Virus record (IMG/VR): IMGVR_UViG_3300021368_001307
Coordinates: 1 to 39,885 of that record
Strand: one strand, 5' to 3'
Length of the DNA stretch: 39,885 bases
From: a virus
The notes beneath the pieces are model-generated. The model did not search any database. It was not told where the DNA came from and saw nothing but the letters and a program-made list of their open reading frames with translations. The position numbers and the translations under genes are program-made. The stretch's first letter is position 1. Each line of letters begins with the position of its first letter. Below are positions 5,941 to 37,052 of the stretch, piece after piece.

Positions 5941-5944
5941 TTGT

Positions 5945-5973
5945 GGGGGTTGCAATTTGCAATCCCCATTTTT
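5945..5973 (+). terminator. Intrinsic terminator 2, GC-rich
   Basis: GGGGGTTGC (5945-5953) pairs with GCAATCCCC (5959-5967), nine pairs including one G-U, around loop AATTT. ATTTTT follows. It is the stronger of two tandem terminators and ends 11 bases before the next ATG. Confidence 0.85.
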
Positions 5974-5984
5974 AATGCTGCGTT

Positions 5985-8900
5985 ATGGCCGTTTATTCCT
6001 ATAGTACAACAGGAATATTTCCATCAATCATTCGTTTTAACACGAATGTTGGATTAGGCAGCTTTTCTTATGTTTATGAACCAAGTATTATAGATCTCTA
6101 TTCAGAGATAGACTATGGTACGTTATCATTTAATCCAACTCCAGTAACTACAACCGAAACTGTTGATGTTGATAGTTTAAATGCCACTTTATCAAATACT
6201 GTCCTGTCGGATACTGGAACAGGAACAGGAACTACTGGTGGATTTAATATTGGTAGACATATTAGATTTAACAGCACAAATTCCCCTAGAACGGTAGAGT
6301 TCAGTTTACCAAACGATATCAATTCTTCACTAACCTTTGAAGTAATTAGAGGTAATGATACTAACGGTGGAGAAGATCCAGATACTGGAACAGAAAGTTT
6401 AAACCTAGAGTATTATGATGGAAGTTCGTGGATTTCTATTGATATTGTAGTAGAATACAATGATGCTTCATTCAATACTTTAAAATCTGTAGAGATAACA
6501 ATTCCTTCTGTAGCGAGAACAGCGGGAACACAATTCAGGTTAATTCAACCAGCTCATAGTGGTAACAACTGGGATCATTATGGTTTCAAGTCTCTTACAT
6601 ATACTTACACATATACACCAACACTATCAACAATAAATCTTGGTAGTATTACAGATCTCAACGCTACGATAGAAGATCGCGGTAGAGTTGTTTATGTAAC
6701 TAATGTAGAATCCTTCGGATTTGTTAAGGTTGTTAGCGAAGCGTCTTGGAAGGCGACTAACACATACGAAGGTACAGGTATTGCGTTTACCTTTGGTAGA
6801 CAGACTTCACCAGCAGTATACGGTTATATCGTTGACGGAAAAGTCAAAGGTCTTGGCGGTACAAGTCTGGGGGTATTTTCTGGCAAGCACGATGGTGCGG
6901 GAACTACCTCCATACTTGGACAATCGCCTATCGGTATTGGTGTTGGTATCTTTGGTTCAGGTAATCTATTTACGATTGCAAGTGCAGACGATGCATTCTT
7001 GCCAACATGGACCAGTCGCGGATATATTAGTAAGATTACAGGTGCTGCAAGAGATATTACTCTTGTACACGAAACAGGATTTGGAAATCTATTCACCTTC
7101 TCTGGCGGACAGCAACGCGCTACAAATGCGTTCGCTGGATCAGGTGGACTCAAACTAGTTAGTAGAAAACCAGAACTTTCAGAACTTTCTGATGAGAAAC
7201 ATACTGAAAGATATATCAATGACAGTATTGTTGAATTCTCCAAGGCTGATTATGGTTATCTAACCATATGTCATCCAAGTGATATTGAAGATGTATCAGG
7301 AACATTAGATGGTGAATCTTCTGGATGTATTGTACGTGTAGGATCAACTGCGAGTGTTGATCTTGGAACAACTTATAGTGTATCTCAAGGTGCTAATTCT
7401 CCTAGCAACTTTATTGATTACGGTCTGGTCTCAGAACCTGCAGCTCCTCAGATAGACTTCGGTCATATCTTAACGACAAGCAATCTTATTCCATTCGGAT
7501 TATTCACGTTTGATCCACATAATGGTGCAGCATATGCATTCAATCCAACGTGGACCAGTCGTGGATATATCAGTAAGCTTACTGGTGAAGCAAGTGTTCC
7601 TCTGGATGTATCCGTATTTGGTACAGGAACCATCAGGAAACTTGGTGGAGACTCCATCACCAACTTCGCACTGCTGCAACCAGGAGATGGTCTATTTGGA
7701 TTCCACAGTGAATCTCAGATTGGAATCGGTGTTGGTATCTTTGGTGATGGATCTATTCCAACTCTCAGTGGTGCTGCAGATTCTGTTACCTATAACCCAG
7801 AAGAAAAAGATCTCCTATTCTCTTTCAATGGAGAAGCAACGTCTGCATTCAATCCTAATTGGGTTGGTAGTGGTGTTCTATTCACACTTCAGTCTGCAGT
7901 TGAAAGAACTGTATATGACTATGTTGGATCTGGAAGAATCTTCGGATTTAATAATCTTGAAGAGAAGAAAGTATACGATTACAACTGCAGTTCTATCGTT
8001 CCTTTCCCAGAAAACGATTATGGATTCATCATCAATACATCAGCAATTACATGTGTTGATGTTGATGGTGTCATTTCATCTAATGAGACACCAACTTCTG
8101 GATGTATTAAGGTACTCAATTCATTAACAATTGATCAAGGTGTTACTTATTCAGTAAGACCTCAGAATACTATTGCAGCAAATACTATAGATTATGGATT
8201 AGTACCAGAGAATGCATCTCCTCTTGCAGACTTTGGACATATTCTTGGTACTCCACGTCTTGGATTACCAGGATGTATTTACGGTCAGATTGATGTATTT
8301 GGTGAAGCTCAAGTTGCATTCACACCAAATTATATCACTCGTGGATTTATTCATCTCAGTGGAGAAGGAAGAGTTCCATTATTTGCAAGTGAAATTGGTG
8401 GTGGTACTATCAAAATTGGAGGAGAAAGTAAGACTAACTTCAGTCTTCTCTCTCCTGGTGATGGTCTATTCAGACTTGTTAGTGATATCACTGTTGGTAT
8501 TACAATTGGTATTAAAGGATCTGGAAATCTATTTGCATACTCTGGCGGTGCAGAGTCTACTACTTCAGTTCCTCCAACCGAAGAACCAATCTTCACATTC
8601 GTTGGTACATCTGGAGATCCAGGAATTCGTCTTGCACATGAAGGATCTGGTTCTCTATTCGCAATTAGCGGTGGAGATCTTAGAGTTCAGTATGCATACG
8701 AGACTACTGGATCTATTAGTCTCTGTTCCAAGAAACCAGAACTTAGTGAGCTATCGGAAGAGAAGCATACTGAAGTCTACAGTATGGATCTCTGCATTGA
8801 TCAACCAGAACTTGATTATGGCAGAATTGTTGATCTTAGTGCAACTGTTGTTTGTGTTGATGTTGACGGAAATATCAGCACAAGTACTTCAGCAGGAACT

Positions 8901-19790: not shown

Positions 19791-21272
19791 ATGGCAAGAA
19801 GTATTAGCACAAAACCCGCAACGGTTAAATCAAAAACTCAAAATCCATATACACAACCATGTTTTGCTACGTATGCATGCGAACATAGTGTATATGGATG
19901 TGGGTATATTTTATTTGATCATAACCTTGAAGCAATTGGAAAATACGTTGGTGATGGAAACTATCACCAAAATCAATTCAGAACTTATACTTCGTATTCT
20001 CCAGAATTTTGGAATAACTATGCAGGTTCTGCTTACATGGAGACGCAAGGTCATGCAGGTAGTAGCGAGAATTATGGTTCTAATACCTGTAATAATGGTT
20101 ACTTAGGACATATGGGTCATTATAGCGTGACTGAATTTGCTAAAACTGCAGGATATAACCGTGGTTGGCCATCAGCACACAATTATAATGCATATGGATT
20201 TAGAGATGTTAATTCTATTGTAGGTGATATCAATCAAGATTGGGCATGGTTTACTGACAGAGATGGAAGTGGACACAGAATGTTGTTTGGTCAAAGAAGT
20301 GCTGCTAAGTATTATCAGAATAGGGTTAGAGAAGGGATGAACATGGTTAATGTCCCAATTCAATCTCAAGAAGGTCCTACTAGTAGTACTGGAACTACGG
20401 ATAATAGATTCTATGGTGGTTCCTGCATCAATACCAGAGCTAATAGAGTTTGCTTGATGCAAACAGATGGCAGTGGTTATAAGCAACCCATTGTTTATAA
20501 CAATGTAAAAATGGATTGGAGAGCATACGCTCTTCATAATAATCATTTTGCAGGAACAACAGAAGCAAGTGCTGCTAAATCAGATAGTGATTCAAAGATC
20601 TATCAGTTCTTTAACAACAGTGCAAACTATACTGCATATGATAGAGCAAATCATTCTAATGCAGCATCTTACTCAGGTTCAGGAGAATCTTATTGGAGAA
20701 CTCAATCTTGTATCTGTGATAATGGAATGGTATATACCTTCTCAATGACACCTGGCAACGGTTGTTCATTTGAAAAGTGGAATACGGACGGAACATACGC
20801 TGGTGTACAATGGAACGGAACTTGGACCACATCATATGGTTATGAGCAAGGTCATCGCTTTGGTTCTAGATGGCAAGTAAGTAGCGATGGTGAGTATTGG
20901 TGGGCATACTGTCCTTCATACTATTATGGTGCTGGTATTTACTTTGCAGTGGTTAGAGTCAGTGATGGTAAGTGGTTGTATTTCCAATCAAATGATAGTA
21001 CTCATGGAAGATCTTTGGCACCATTAGGTAAACATAAAATGGTGTATACATATTCCACCAACAAAGATAATCCTGGTACTTACTACAGAATTATGGATTT
21101 TGATTATGAATTCAGAAGAAGACCTAATGGAGACAATATCGGTGACTGGGATAGTAACTATTCCGCTTACTTACTTGATACTGCAGGAAACAGTACTGGA
21201 TATCCATTCATTATTCCAGCGATGTACAACACTTCCCTGTTTACTTCTCAGTTAGAGAGTAACGTAGAGTAA
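19791..21272 (+). CDS. Adhesin/fibre-like protein, cassette copy B, 493 aa
   Basis: Paralogue of the 515-aa protein at 17704. It shares QPCF near residue 25, FRTYTSYSPEFW, a GYEQGHRFGSRWQVSSDGEY block, WAYCPSYYYGAG and the IIPAMYNTSLF ending. Differences cluster in the middle third, where glycine-, serine- and asparagine-rich loops vary, as expected for receptor-contact regions. No signal peptide, membrane segment or catalytic motif is visible. No convincing Shine-Dalgarno precedes the ATG. The next gene, 30 bases downstream, is its small partner. A host-binding role is inferred. Confidence 0.65.
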   Translation: MARSISTKPATVKSKTQNPYTQPCFATYACEHSVYGCGYILFDHNLEAIGKYVGDGNYHQNQFRTYTSYSPEFWNNYAGSAYMETQGHAGSSENYGSNTCNNGYLGHMGHYSVTEFAKTAGYNRGWPSAHNYNAYGFRDVNSIVGDINQDWAWFTDRDGSGHRMLFGQRSAAKYYQNRVREGMNMVNVPIQSQEGPTSSTGTTDNRFYGGSCINTRANRVCLMQTDGSGYKQPIVYNNVKMDWRAYALHNNHFAGTTEASAAKSDSDSKIYQFFNNSANYTAYDRANHSNAASYSGSGESYWRTQSCICDNGMVYTFSMTPGNGCSFEKWNTDGTYAGVQWNGTWTTSYGYEQGHRFGSRWQVSSDGEYWWAYCPSYYYGAGIYFAVVRVSDGKWLYFQSNDSTHGRSLAPLGKHKMVYTYSTNKDNPGTYYRIMDFDYEFRRRPNGDNIGDWDSNYSAYLLDTAGNSTGYPFIIPAMYNTSLFTSQLESNVE

Positions 21273-21278
21273 TAAATA
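21271..21278 (+). promoter_or_regulatory. Late promoter, AATAAATA
   Basis: AATAAATA shares its first two bases with the stop of adhesin B. It lies 24 bases before ATG 21303, with AAGAGGAAA between them. Confidence 0.5.
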
Positions 21279-21302: not shown

Positions 21303-21836
21303 ATGGCACACATCTTTTTTACCACAGAAGCAGGGGTGATTAAACCAAAAAATATTTGGGATTTAAAACCATTTGAGGACGAGACACTAGAATCTGGTGA
21401 TTATCTTGTTGAGTATGATTTTGATCCTACTGTTGAGGAATTTCTATCTTTATCATTGAATGATGCCAAAGATACTGTTGTTAATCGTTTCCCTGGTAAA
21501 ACATTAGCAGAACAGAAAGCGTTGCTGGCAGAAGAAACTAAAGCAGAAAGAATTGCATTAGTTAAGGATGTTAAAACTAGAAGAATTAAATCTTTAGTTG
21601 CGGATGCTATTGAACCAGTTGAGTGGAGAGCAGAAAGAGCAATAGAACTAGATGCTATAGAAGGTGATGGTGTTACTACCAGACAAGCAAAAGTTGCTGC
21701 ATATAGAAAAGCAGCACGTGATGCTAATAATGCACACGAAGCGGCTTTACTAGCTCTTACTGAAGAAGAAGATATAGTAGCATTTGATCCTAATTGGGTT
21801 CCTGCATTTCAGGCAGCAAATCCAATTGATTTCTGA
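21303..21836 (+). CDS. Adhesin-partner protein with NRFPGKT motif, copy B, 177 aa
   Basis: Paralogue of the 165-aa gene at 19254. It has a beta N-terminus (GDYLVEYDFDPTVEEFLSL), VNRFPGKTLAEQKALLAEE, then a charged helical stretch rich in A, E, K and R. The C-terminus (DPNWVPAFQAANPIDF) differs from copy A. AGAGGAAA upstream is a usable ribosome site. It closes the fibre region; the next gene is gp13. Chaperone or fibre-tip subunit is a hypothesis from its pairing with the adhesin. Confidence 0.65.
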   Translation: MAHIFFTTEAGVIKPKNIWDLKPFEDETLESGDYLVEYDFDPTVEEFLSLSLNDAKDTVVNRFPGKTLAEQKALLAEETKAERIALVKDVKTRRIKSLVADAIEPVEWRAERAIELDAIEGDGVTTRQAKVAAYRKAARDANNAHEAALLALTEEEDIVAFDPNWVPAFQAANPIDF

Positions 21837-21850
21837 TCATCATTAGCAAT

Positions 21851-21858
21851 TATAAATA
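21851..21858 (+). promoter_or_regulatory. Late promoter, TATAAATA, for gp13
   Basis: An exact late core 26 bases before ATG 21885. Its last three bases are the first three bases of the hairpin left arm, so a transcript starting about six bases downstream would lack most of that arm. Confidence 0.75.
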
Positions 21859-21884
21859 CCCTTAGGAAACTAGGGGTATTTTTT
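21856..21884 (+). terminator. Hairpin overlapping late promoter and gp13 ribosome site
   Basis: ATACCCTTAG (21856-21865) pairs with CTAGGGGTAT (21870-21879), ten pairs including one U-G, with a GAAA tetraloop. The T-run is 21879-21884 and the ATG is 21885. As read-through RNA it resembles an intrinsic terminator. The only Shine-Dalgarno-like bases (AGGGG, 21872-21876) are in the right arm, eight bases before the ATG. Confidence 0.75.
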
Positions 21885-22688
21885 ATGGCTCAACCTTCTA
21901 GCAGGTCCGAGCTAAGGGACTACTGTTTAAGACAATTAGGGTTCCCAGTTCTGGAAATCAACATAGATGACGATCAAATTGACGATGCAATTGATGATGC
22001 ATTGCAATATTATCGTGAGCGTCATTATGATGGTGTAGAACGTATGTACCTAAAGCATCTGTTTACTGCTGCAGATGAAACTAAATTTGAAACTTCAAAT
22101 ACCACTACAACAGTTAATGGAGATACATGGGAAGAAAGAAATAGATACATTTCTATCCCTCCTCACGTCATGGGTATTTCCAGAGTTTTTGGACTTGCAA
22201 GTAATGCGATTAGAAATAACCTGTTTGGCATTGAGTATCAGATTTTTCTAAATGATCTTTATGCTGTTGGTTCACTTGATATGCTTAACTACTTCATGGT
22301 TAAGCAGTGGATGGAAACCATTGATATGGTTTTAAATAATGGTTCTTTTGTTGAGTATAGATTTAATTTACGTCAGGATAGATTATACCTAGATGTAGGT
22401 AAAGACATGCTTGATGAAGATGTATATGTGATTATTGATTGCTTTAGAGCTCTTGATCCAGATACATTTACTCAAGTTTATAACGATACTTTTGTTAAAA
22501 AGTATACAACCGCATTGATTAAAAGGCAATGGGGTCAGAATCTTATTAAGTTTAATGGTATTCAACTTCCTGGTGGAGTAAGTATGAATGGCAGACAGTT
22601 ATATGATGATGCAGAAAAAGAAATTGCTGCACTAATGGAAAAATCTAGCAGCACATTTGAACTTCCCCCAATGGATATGATCGGATGA
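21885..22688 (+). CDS. 13: Neck protein gp13
   Basis: Recognised as the cyanophage form of the T4 gp13 neck (head completion) protein, from its start (RSELRDYCLRQLGFPVLEIN), an acidic helix (DDDQIDDAIDDALQYYRERH) and its position directly before gp14. In T4, gp13 and gp14 seal the filled head and join it to the tail. Its 267 residues are somewhat short of T4's about 309. Its stop overlaps the gp14 ATG by four bases (ATGA). Translation probably depends on the hairpin described at 21856. Confidence 0.85.
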   Translation: MAQPSSRSELRDYCLRQLGFPVLEINIDDDQIDDAIDDALQYYRERHYDGVERMYLKHLFTAADETKFETSNTTTTVNGDTWEERNRYISIPPHVMGISRVFGLASNAIRNNLFGIEYQIFLNDLYAVGSLDMLNYFMVKQWMETIDMVLNNGSFVEYRFNLRQDRLYLDVGKDMLDEDVYVIIDCFRALDPDTFTQVYNDTFVKKYTTALIKRQWGQNLIKFNGIQLPGGVSMNGRQLYDDAEKEIAALMEKSSSTFELPPMDMIG

Positions 22689-24094
22689 AAAAGGTATACT
22701 TTCCTCAGTACGGTGGTAATAAGACTGAACAAAATCTTGTACAAGATTTAGTAGACGAACAGATTAAACTGTTTGGTCAGGATGTCTATTATATTCCTAG
22801 AGTTCAAATTAAAGATAGAACGTTAGGAGAAGTTATTCAATCTGAATTCAATCAAAGTTATATGATTGAAATGATGATGGTTAACGTAGAAGGTTTTGGA
22901 GCAGGCAATGAATTTATCAGTAAATTTGGTCTTAGGATTACTGATGAAATTACATTTGTTGTTTCAAGAAGAAGATGGGAACAGTCTGCAAATCCTGCTT
23001 TAAATTTAGCAGTAGATGGTAGACCCAATGAAGGAGATTTAGTTTACTTTCCATTAACTGAAGATACATATGAAATAAAGTATGTTGAAAGAGAACAACC
23101 TTTCTTCCAGTTGGGGAAACAGTATTTTTATGTTCTTACTGCTGAGCTCTACGAGCAAGGAGCAGACAAATTTGACACGGGAATTGACGAAATTGACGGT
23201 ATTGAAAGAGATTTCAGTAACATCACAACCCTTAATCTTGGTCTTACTACCAGACAGCAAGCAACTGGAACAGTTACCGTTGATTCTAGCGGCAGTATAT
23301 CTGGAGCAACTGTAACACTAGCAGGCACTGGATATAACACTGCTCCAAATGTAACGATAACTAATGCTGGAAATGCATCTGGTGGAATTATTGAATCAAC
23401 TATTTCTGATGGAGGTGTAGTATCTTTATCGGTTGTAAATGGTGGTATTAATTTTGATCCATCTAATCCACCAACAATTGTGATTGATGCCCCACCAGAA
23501 GGAATTCAATTTATTGCAGATGAGCATGTTGTTATTGGTGGGATGGTACAGCAGAGTGGTAGTAGAACATGGACATCATCTAATGGTGTCATTGAAGTAA
23601 CTGCACTTGGTGGATTTGATCCTAACTATGCAACTACCACACAGAAAAAATATTACTATTGGAAATTTGAAGATAGTAGAATTTCTTATGTGTACACATT
23701 TAATGGTACAGATGCAACAACTGTACCAGGACATTTTTATTATGATTCAACAAATTTAAAGTATGTAATCAATGCATACACTGAGACTGTTACTAGCGGT
23801 CAAAGAGCGCAGATGTTTGACCTAGACAGTGCAACTATTGCTGAGGTTGCAGATTGGAATGGTTCTACTTACACATTAGAAGTTATGAACCGTACTGGAA
23901 ACTTTATTGATGGTGATTTGGTTCGTGGTGTAGAATCAAATGCGATATATACAGTTGGATCGTTCTCTACGATTGACAACACAAGCACCGAGTTTGATCA
24001 AAATCAATCAATAGAAAGTGGTGCGGATGACATTATTGATTGGGGTGAGAAAAACCCATTCGGTGAATTTGGTAATTTTACAGGTAGCTTCTGA
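22685..24094 (+). CDS. 14: Neck protein gp14 with inserted beta modules
   Basis: The N-terminal part (MKKVYFPQYGGNKTEQNLVQ, FGQDVYYIPRVQI) and the C-terminal IIDWGEKNPFGEFGNF are typical of gp14, which completes the head neck with gp13. At 469 residues it is much longer than T4's about 256. Extra material at about residues 190-275 includes GTGYNTAPNVTITNAG and IVIDAPPEG strands, a small beta module also seen in gp18 here. More beta-rich sequence follows to about 440. Its stop overlaps the gp15 ATG by one base. Confidence 0.85.
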   Translation: MKKVYFPQYGGNKTEQNLVQDLVDEQIKLFGQDVYYIPRVQIKDRTLGEVIQSEFNQSYMIEMMMVNVEGFGAGNEFISKFGLRITDEITFVVSRRRWEQSANPALNLAVDGRPNEGDLVYFPLTEDTYEIKYVEREQPFFQLGKQYFYVLTAELYEQGADKFDTGIDEIDGIERDFSNITTLNLGLTTRQQATGTVTVDSSGSISGATVTLAGTGYNTAPNVTITNAGNASGGIIESTISDGGVVSLSVVNGGINFDPSNPPTIVIDAPPEGIQFIADEHVVIGGMVQQSGSRTWTSSNGVIEVTALGGFDPNYATTTQKKYYYWKFEDSRISYVYTFNGTDATTVPGHFYYDSTNLKYVINAYTETVTSGQRAQMFDLDSATIAEVADWNGSTYTLEVMNRTGNFIDGDLVRGVESNAIYTVGSFSTIDNTSTEFDQNQSIESGADDIIDWGEKNPFGEFGNFTGSF

Positions 24095-25328: not shown

Positions 25329-26042
25329 ATGGAATTTCAATATCCAAATGAATTTGATTTTATGGAAGGCATAGATGCCTTTCCTGCATATGTCTATAAA
25401 ACAAAATTTGATTTTAATTTTAAATCATTTCAATCTAAAGTGGATGAATACTTAAAAGCATCAAAAGAACTTTCTACAGAAAGAGGTTGGAAAGATCCTG
25501 AGCATGGTGATGCTATTACTGGGGTTCATTTCAATAACACTGAAGAATTTAAAGTAGAAACAGATTGGGATGTTCCACATAATTGGAAAGAATTTAAAGA
25601 ATTTTTTGACTTTGTTGAGTACGTAACTCCATTCTTAATGAATACATGGTTCAAAGCTCCGCCATGCCATATGCATGTTTCGGAATCTTGGATTAATGTA
25701 CATAGAAAAGGAGGGTGGACAGAACCACACCATCATCAAAATGCATGTATTGCTATTGCAGCTTATCTAGAAGTTCCAGAAAAAAGTGGGAACCTTCTAA
25801 TTGAAAATCCACTAAGACCATATAAATGTTCAGAACCTCTAGCTCAAAATAGTACTGATCTTATCTGGGGACCTATTGAAGTAGAGACAAATGATGTTTT
25901 ATTTTTTCCTGGTTGGTTAACTCACAAAACTGAATCAAATCCTATTGACAATCCTCGCTATGTTCTTTCAACTAATCTAGCAGTATTGAATGGTTTGAAG
26001 AGCAAACCTACTTGGCATTACGAAGGTAGGAGAGATAAATAA
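25329..26042 (+). CDS. 2-oxoglutarate/Fe(II) dioxygenase-like protein
   Basis: This 237-aa protein has the double-stranded beta-helix ligand pattern of the 2OG-FeII_Oxy_5 group: GGWTEPHHHQN with H134/H136 as iron ligand candidates, then AYLEVPEKSGNLLIENPL, then FPGWLTH with H199, and NPRYVLSTN with R210 in place to bind 2-oxoglutarate. Such phage enzymes hydroxylate protein or nucleic-acid substrates; the substrate here is unknown. It opens the metabolic insertion after gp16. No signal peptide, so it is cytoplasmic. Confidence 0.75.
   Translation: MEFQYPNEFDFMEGIDAFPAYVYKTKFDFNFKSFQSKVDEYLKASKELSTERGWKDPEHGDAITGVHFNNTEEFKVETDWDVPHNWKEFKEFFDFVEYVTPFLMNTWFKAPPCHMHVSESWINVHRKGGWTEPHHHQNACIAIAAYLEVPEKSGNLLIENPLRPYKCSEPLAQNSTDLIWGPIEVETNDVLFFPGWLTHKTESNPIDNPRYVLSTNLAVLNGLKSKPTWHYEGRRDK
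26034..26041 (+). promoter_or_regulatory. Late promoter, GATAAATA
   Basis: GATAAATA holds the first two bases of the oxygenase TAA stop (26040-26042) and precedes ATG 26057 by 15 bases. It differs from the canonical core at one base. Confidence 0.45.
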
Positions 26043-35348: not shown

Positions 35349-37052
35349 ATGAGTCAGTTATTTGGCTTTCAAATTAATCGTAAGGAGGGTCAGAAGGGTC
35401 AGTCCCCTGTCCCTCCTTCTGCTGACGAGCCAGTCTCTATTGCCGCAGGCGGTTATTTTGGAACATATGTAGACACAGACGCTACTGCAAGGAATGAGTT
35501 TGAACTCATTCGTAGGTATAGAGACATGTCTCTACACCCAGAAGTAGACTCTGCTGTAGATGAAATTGTGAATGAATTTGTGGTTAGCGATGCTAATGAC
35601 AGTTGTGTTGAGGTTGATCTTAACAACTTAGAAGTTGGAGCGGGAGTTAAGAAAAAAATTCGTGACGAGTTTGACAAGATCAAACAGATGTTGAATTTTG
35701 ACAATCGTGCTCATGAAATTATTCGTAGTTGGTATATTGACGGAAAGTTATTTTATCATAAAGTAATTGATTTAGATAATCCAAAGAAAGGTATTACTGA
35801 ACTTCGTTATATTGACCCACTAAAGATTCGTAAAGTAAGACAAAAACTCAGTAAGGGTTCTGATGACCCTAGAGTAAATAGAGCATTGAAAGGTACTGCA
35901 CTGGAGTATGAATGGGGGCAGTACATTGACTATTTCATATACAATCCCAAAGGATATCTAAGAGGCGGAGCACTCGGTCCTATTGGAGATATGTCCAACT
36001 CCCAAGGAATTAAGATTGCTGCAGATTCAATTGCATTCTGTTCCTCTGGAGTTCAAGATCTTAACAAGAGAATGCATTTGAGTTTCCTACACAAAGGAAT
36101 CAAGTCACTCAATCAACTTAGAATGATTGAGGATGCTCTGGTTATTTACAGATTGTCACGCGCACCTGAGCGTAGGATTTTCTATATTGATGTAGGTAAT
36201 TTACCTAAGGTAAAAGCGGAACAGTATCTCCGTGATGTTATGAGTCGCTATCGTAACAAGCTAGTGTATGACGCAAACACTGGTGAGATTCGTGATGACA
36301 AAAAACACATGAGTATGCTAGAGGATTTTTGGTTGCCTCGTAGAGAGGGTGGTCGCGGAACTGAGATCACTACACTGCCAGGTGGACAAAACCTAGGCGA
36401 ACTCAAAGATGTTGAGTATTTTAAGAAGAAGCTTTATAACAGCCTCAATCTTCCTCCTTCCCGTCTCACCGACGATAATAAAGGATTCAACCTCGGTAAA
36501 ACCACTGAAGTCCTTAGAGACGAACTTAAGTTCACAAAGTTCATCGGTAGACTACGTAAAAGATTTGGTGAACTCTTTCACGATATTCTTAAAACGCAAC
36601 TCATTCTTAAAGGAGTAATTTCTCCTGAAGATTGGGATGATATGAAGGAGCATATTCAATATGACTTCTTGTTTGATAACCATTTCAATGAGTTAAAAGA
36701 ACAAGAACTAATGACACAGCGCATTGCTCTTGCAACTCAGATGGATCCATTTGTTGGTAAGTATTTCTCAATTGAACATATTCGTAGACAAATTCTACAA
36801 CAGAATGAGAAGGAATATAAGGAAATTGAAAAACAAATGAAGAATGAAATTGATGCTGGTCTAGCAATGAATCCATCTGATGTTAATACATTTGACATGA
36901 TGGATCGCCAGAATGCTGCATTTGCTCCTGAAATTGCAGCGCAACAAGCTGATGACTCTCACGAACGAGAGCAAGAAAAAGCAGACGACGCGCATCAAAA
37001 ACAATTGCAAATGGCGAAAGCGCAACCTAAACCTTCTTCTAATACTAAATAA
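35349..37052 (+). CDS. 20: Portal protein gp20
   Basis: A 567-residue portal: N-terminal RYRDMSLHPEVDSAVDEIVN, central ALGPIGDMSNSQGIKIAADS, SRAPERRIFYIDVGNLPK, and the NSLNLPPSRLTDDNKGFNLG motif are all characteristic of T4-type gp20. It forms the dodecameric vertex ring on which the head assembles and through which gp17 packages DNA. The C-terminal 90 residues are charged and coiled-coil-like (HEREQEKADDAHQKQLQMAK), disordered beyond T4's end (about 524 residues). It follows an exact late promoter. Confidence 0.95.
   Translation: MSQLFGFQINRKEGQKGQSPVPPSADEPVSIAAGGYFGTYVDTDATARNEFELIRRYRDMSLHPEVDSAVDEIVNEFVVSDANDSCVEVDLNNLEVGAGVKKKIRDEFDKIKQMLNFDNRAHEIIRSWYIDGKLFYHKVIDLDNPKKGITELRYIDPLKIRKVRQKLSKGSDDPRVNRALKGTALEYEWGQYIDYFIYNPKGYLRGGALGPIGDMSNSQGIKIAADSIAFCSSGVQDLNKRMHLSFLHKGIKSLNQLRMIEDALVIYRLSRAPERRIFYIDVGNLPKVKAEQYLRDVMSRYRNKLVYDANTGEIRDDKKHMSMLEDFWLPRREGGRGTEITTLPGGQNLGELKDVEYFKKKLYNSLNLPPSRLTDDNKGFNLGKTTEVLRDELKFTKFIGRLRKRFGELFHDILKTQLILKGVISPEDWDDMKEHIQYDFLFDNHFNELKEQELMTQRIALATQMDPFVGKYFSIEHIRRQILQQNEKEYKEIEKQMKNEIDAGLAMNPSDVNTFDMMDRQNAAFAPEIAAQQADDSHEREQEKADDAHQKQLQMAKAQPKPSSNTK

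Follow-up and report, generated by a model that had tools for sequence, protein, structure and literature searches.

A candidate T4-type late promoter nested in a terminator-like hairpin before the neck gene 13 of cyanophages

Introduction

In phage T4, each of the genes e, soc, 49, and I-TevI has a leader hairpin that occludes the ribosome site in long transcripts, and the left arm of this hairpin carries the late promoter, such that the late RNA is made without this arm (PMC3014915, PMC2988022). Further late leaders of the gene e kind belong to T4 I-TevII, I-TevIII, and segB, and to mobE of Aeh1; the T4 precedents work by sequestration of the ribosome site (PMC3014915, PMC2988022). The corresponding late promoter motif of cyanophages is NATAAATA (PMC2984593). 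An earlier sequence-only reading of the DNA described here had likened the leader of its gene 13 to those of e, soc, 49, and I-TevI, and its account of the T4 logic agrees with the published one (PMC3014915). Our literature search of open-licence papers recovered no relevant report of overlapping or embedded promoters and terminators. To our knowledge, cyanobacteria lack Rho, which would raise the importance of intrinsic terminators.

Here, we analyze this leader in a 39,885-base virus record (IMGVR_UViG_3300021368_001307; hereinafter the window), a 40-kb fragment of an oceanic cyanophage, and compare it with those of related phages.

Results

Organization of the gp13 locus

Gene 13 (21885..22688; 267 aa; phrog_211, E=1.6e-47), which like the other features of this locus lies on the plus strand, codes for a neck protein or head-tail adaptor (gp13). 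Its 3' end is overlapped by gene 14 (22685..24094; PF11649 and phrog_460), coding for the neck protein gp14, and profile matches identify the next gene as the tail sheath stabilizer. The ORF upstream of gene 13 (21303..21836; 177 aa) has a weak match to phrog_26358 and gave no match in a Pfam search, and TAAATA begins 16 bases past its end. As this ORF has its own late-promoter-like site, AATAAATA (21271..21278), its RNA would enter the hairpin that precedes gp13. Searches of the window against Rfam and for tRNAs returned zero families and no tRNA, respectively. Elsewhere in the window, a terminator-like hairpin with twelve pairs and a T-run (5943-5969) is found shortly 5' of a 1915-aa ORF beginning at 5985; an ORF with the Major tropism determinant N-terminal domain (PF18454; 11771-12229) has a late leader (from 11736) with a weak resemblance to the type B leaders described below; and a 2OG-Fe(II) oxygenase gene (25329-26042) adjoins the small terminase gene on its 3' side.

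The exact TATAAATA claimed by the sequence-only reading is indeed present at 21851..21858. We recognize a T4-type late promoter by an TATAAATA or NATAAATA on the sense strand 5' of a late gene, and this is what is found before gp13. By itself, TATAAATA occurs six times in the window against 2.6 expected. The late-promoter motif shows a strong strand bias, and it is kept close 5' of gp13 in most relatives. It overlaps, again as had been claimed, the left arm (21854..21865) of a hairpin with a GAAA loop (21866..21869) and a right arm at 21870..21881. The fold extends the stem to 12 pairs from the ten first proposed. The right arm contains a Shine-Dalgarno-like AGGGG (21872..21876), with the ATG 8 bases further on, and a TTTTTT run (21879..21884) abuts the ATG at 21885, both in line with the earlier description. 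That description had also made AGGGG the sole Shine-Dalgarno-like site; there is a further AGGA (21864..21867) spanning the top of the stem and the loop, but it lies 17 bases from the ATG.

The 81-nt fold of the site has an energy of -26.6 kcal/mol (z = -3.9), with 0/200 shuffles being as stable, and the stem-loop by itself accounts for -15.5 kcal/mol. The element thus combines a stable stem, a short loop, and a U-run that directly follows and ends at 21884, as in the sequence of an intrinsic terminator. A simple terminator scanner gave no call at this hairpin, probably because the stem runs on into the T-run.

Late transcription is predicted to start at the A at 21864, six bases past the promoter, yielding an RNA that begins AGGAAACUAGGGG. 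The start near this position proposed by the sequence-only reading would fit a purine peak (76% A/G, 4% C) that cyanophage promoters show six bases past ATAAATA. The possibility that AGGA at the RNA start is a general extension of late promoters was rejected, with the genome-wide preference being a merely mild one for purine. A 193-kb contig with a leader almost identical to that of the window codes for a gp55 homolog (E=1.4e-18) and has two Photo_RC (psbA/psbD-type) matches, which makes late initiation by gp55 reasonable in this cyanophage group.

Diversity of gp13 leaders

To place this leader among its relatives, we compared the bases before gp13 in 328 related loci taken from viral contigs and isolates. 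The form seen in the window, type A, with a perfect hairpin and T-run (e.g., TATAAATACCCCTAGGAAACTAGGGGTATTTTTTATG), is found in 55/328 loci with 16 distinct leaders. Type B (27/328 loci, 17 distinct; e.g., ATAAATACCTCTAGGAAAACTATAGGTATATCGTATG) has an imperfect, weaker hairpin that holds the Shine-Dalgarno, with its AGG kept, and is devoid of the T-run. In the most frequent form, family I (143/328 loci, 50 distinct leaders), TAAATA is instead the loop of a predicted intrinsic terminator, as in Syn1 (TCCCTGCCTG-ATAAATA-CAGGTAGGGACTTTTT); S-PM2, S-RSM4, and S-CAM4 have similar forms. The U-run is kept in all 16 distinct type A and all 50 distinct family I leaders. The remaining leaders in which a promoter is accompanied by a hairpin that is weak or of another kind were sorted by pattern into family II (85/328 loci, 57 distinct), which takes in S-SM2, S-BM3, and a few looser forms of family I; in S-BM3, the terminator and late promoter are adjacent rather than nested. 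Finally, a promoter is missing from the ~48 nt before gp13 in 18/328 loci (S-CAM1, P-RSM6, and S-SRM01 among them), and there gp13 closely trails the upstream gene, often with a free AGGAGG-like site. P-SSM2 likewise has no promoter in the 90 nt 5' of gp13. We accordingly reject the presence of the element at every gp13, with S-CAM1, P-RSM6, P-SSM2, and S-BM3 all lacking it; hence, it is no timer common to all gp13 genes.

The upstream genes vary widely from locus to locus, and the position of their stop codon differs with the leader: 16-31 bases 5' of the promoter in 15/16 type A leaders, and at most 5 bases from the promoter or within it in 14/16 of type B, in which the TAA that opens TAAATA often serves as the stop. 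The gp13 tree implies at least 5-6 switches between types A and B among close relatives, suggesting that the leader is swapped as a block, apparently together with the upstream gene. Among many of the relatives examined, the predicted late gp13 RNAs mostly start with a purine-rich stretch resembling a Shine-Dalgarno site (AGGAAA, AGGGA, GAGGAA, AAGGAA), whatever the type of hairpin.

Conservation and covariation of the pairing

The sequence-only reading had suggested looking for compensatory changes across related phages, and these are present along with G-U changes in a conserved pairing. In types A and B, 89.2% of the cells are paired, against 33-57% in slid versions, and one type A pair, seen as C-G, A-U, G-U, and U-G, has changed several times over the gp13 phylogeny. 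In family I, 95.2% of the cells are paired, and those changed on both sides number 71 against 23.9 in shuffles, which ignore relatedness, and 0-2 when slid; kinship is partly accounted for by the sliding and by the counts on the tree. The G-U pairs are common, occur at varying positions of the gp13 stems, and are evidently tolerated, which favors an RNA element over a DNA palindrome. Thus, the pairing is conserved and covarying, and to judge from these substitution patterns the hairpin acts as RNA. A conserved GNRA tetraloop was considered and rejected: the loop varies among relatives (GACA, GAAACA, GACATA, GTAAAA), whereas the AGGAAA at the predicted RNA start stays.

Predicted folding of long and short RNAs

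Both RNA forms were folded, as the sequence-only reading had suggested, with the start of the short RNA set six bases past TAAATA. In the window, the short form loses the pairing, and opening its ribosome site is predicted to cost 0.7 kcal/mol, compared to 15.6 kcal/mol in the long form. The predicted means for the long and short RNAs are 15.8 and 1.9 kcal/mol in type A, and 6.6 and 2.1 kcal/mol in type B; in family I, whose ribosome site is outside the stem, they are 4.7 and 3.8 kcal/mol. According to these models, sequestration of the ribosome site is open to types A and B and not to family I, while type A and family I share the predicted terminator. The earlier proposal that the hairpin either terminates transcription or hides the ribosome site would therefore hold on both counts for type A, but the hiding is not common to the relatives. 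As family I shares the terminator without such hiding, we rank termination first and sequestration second for the window.

Recurrence of nested promoters beyond gp13

Our survey of terminators covered 14 cyanophage sequences, namely the window plus 13 further genomes or contigs. Of the 353 terminator-like hairpins in these sequences, 16 have TAAATA in the loop or left arm, compared to a mean of 1.9 of 353 for twelve composition-matched control hexamers, though each of these hexamers is commoner genome-wide. An identical scan of T4 and RB49 found TAAATA in 0/74. In most of the 16, a start codon follows directly, and at least two (S-CAM1 157655, P-SSM2 143384) are followed by only a short reading frame. 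Several are just 3' of mazG or nearby genes (Syn1, S-BM3), a siting that hints at transcription-unit borders.

A second scan, without the requirement for a T-run, covered 470 cyanophage TAAATA sites 10-50 nt 5' of an ORF. Promoter-overlapping hairpins were found at 10/470 sites for a score >=27 (0.1 in shuffles) and at 17/470 for a score >=24 (0.5 in shuffles), placing the overlap far above chance. As positive controls, the same scan of T4 recovered four leaders that, recognizing the encoded N-termini, we take to be those of e, soc, 49, and I-TevI. Late promoters of gp20 (portal) overlap hairpins in Syn9, S-RSM4, Syn1, and S-CAM1, and the leader of the window's gp20, a gene that starts at 35349, is without a strong hairpin. 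Layouts like that of the window are also seen before other genes, namely AAATACCTCC-atat-GGAGGTTTTT then ATG in S-PM2 (115172) and AAATAGAGGG-gtaaa-CCCTCTTTTTTTC then ATG in P-RSM6 (28305).

Discussion

We consider it probable that the gp13 element is an intrinsic terminator in which a late promoter is nested, whereby read-through RNA would be stopped or have its ribosome site paired, and late RNA would be free. The 34 bases would then constitute a single composite control element, in which a polymerase arriving from upstream makes the full hairpin and U-run and is expected to stop just 5' of gp13, and any upstream transcript that escapes would keep the hairpin, which pairs with the Shine-Dalgarno. 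A polymerase with the late sigma factor gp55 would start at ~21864, inside the left arm, and its RNA, being unable to form the hairpin, would be neither terminated nor blocked. The neck genes 13-14 would be made from their own late transcript, which may bear on the timing of gp13. Several observations go against this nested-terminator reading, namely the A/B switching, the weak hairpin in family II, the 18 promoterless loci, the side-by-side arrangement in S-BM3, and type B, which keeps the hairpin without the T-run and suggests that termination is not essential at gp13.

The type B leaders, with hairpin, Shine-Dalgarno, and a higher opening cost in the long RNA, would be compatible with a switch that is translational alone, like that of T4 gene e, wherein the hairpin merely hides the ribosome site, the T-run does no more than provide spacing, and hardly any termination occurs; the T4 precedents are cases of sequestration (PMC3014915, PMC2988022). 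We regard this as unlikely given the invariant U-run of the distinct type A and family I leaders, the nearly unchanged opening cost of the family I ribosome site outside the stem, and the absence of TAAATA-bearing terminators from T4 and RB49 by the identical scan. Plain compaction, with the terminator of a variable upstream gene and the late promoter sharing bases for space and no effect on gp13 regulation, appears to us about as improbable: it would fit the varying upstream genes and the stop position that tracks the leader type, and S-BM3 indeed has both parts side by side. However, S-BM3 thereby also manages without overlap, promoter-overlapping hairpins are in clear excess over shuffles (17 against 0.5), and the Shine-Dalgarno is additionally placed in the right arm of types A and B.

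That the inverted repeat is a DNA-level palindrome, i.e., a protein operator or a recombination or packaging site, is far less plausible. It is present in the DNA at a cassette boundary, and the leader type switches among close relatives, but such a palindrome would be broken by the common G-U pairs at varying positions, the T-run invariably faces gp13, and the layout recurs before other genes with unrelated sequences. A chance overlap of two common motifs, for which the frequency of TATAAATA in the window might speak, is scarcely credible in the face of the conservation, covariation, and enrichment counts.

Beyond gp13, we tentatively entertain, as a real possibility that falls short of being probable, a general cyanomyovirus device: intrinsic terminators at transcription-unit borders would harbor a late promoter in their loop or left arm, and late initiation would itself disarm them. 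The conserved gp13 site would then be one of several, and the device would have two architectures or more. The nested-terminator reading of gp13 would carry the T4 late-leader trick beyond single genes of accessory or lysis function to a core virion gene in viruses that are abundant in the sea, with its output shifting from the hidden ribosome sites of T4 to the termination proposed for cyanophages. Such an element would let a compact genome close one transcription unit and open the next within ~34 bases, and it makes clear predictions for the positions of transcript starts and stops in cyanophage infection.

At the sequence level, the gp13 leader is a conserved composite element comparable to the T4 late-leader switch. 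It shares with T4 gene e a late promoter that overlaps the left arm of a leader hairpin, and this hairpin is predicted to pair the Shine-Dalgarno in the long RNA. For gp13, spacing and the purine peak would place the late start within the left arm. Unlike the T4 leaders, the gp13 element adds a U-run and lies 5' of a core virion gene, and in family I the promoter occupies the loop and the ribosome site stays free; the putative terminator output and the promoter-in-loop form would thus be new relative to T4. With ordinary intrinsic (Rho-independent) terminators it shares a G+C-bearing stem, a short loop, and a U-run. The gp13 leader of S-BM3 also has a terminator and late promoter directly 5' of the gene, but side by side, whereas in the nested element, unlike in ordinary terminators, the left arm or loop doubles as the late promoter, such that one class of transcripts would never hold the complete terminator.
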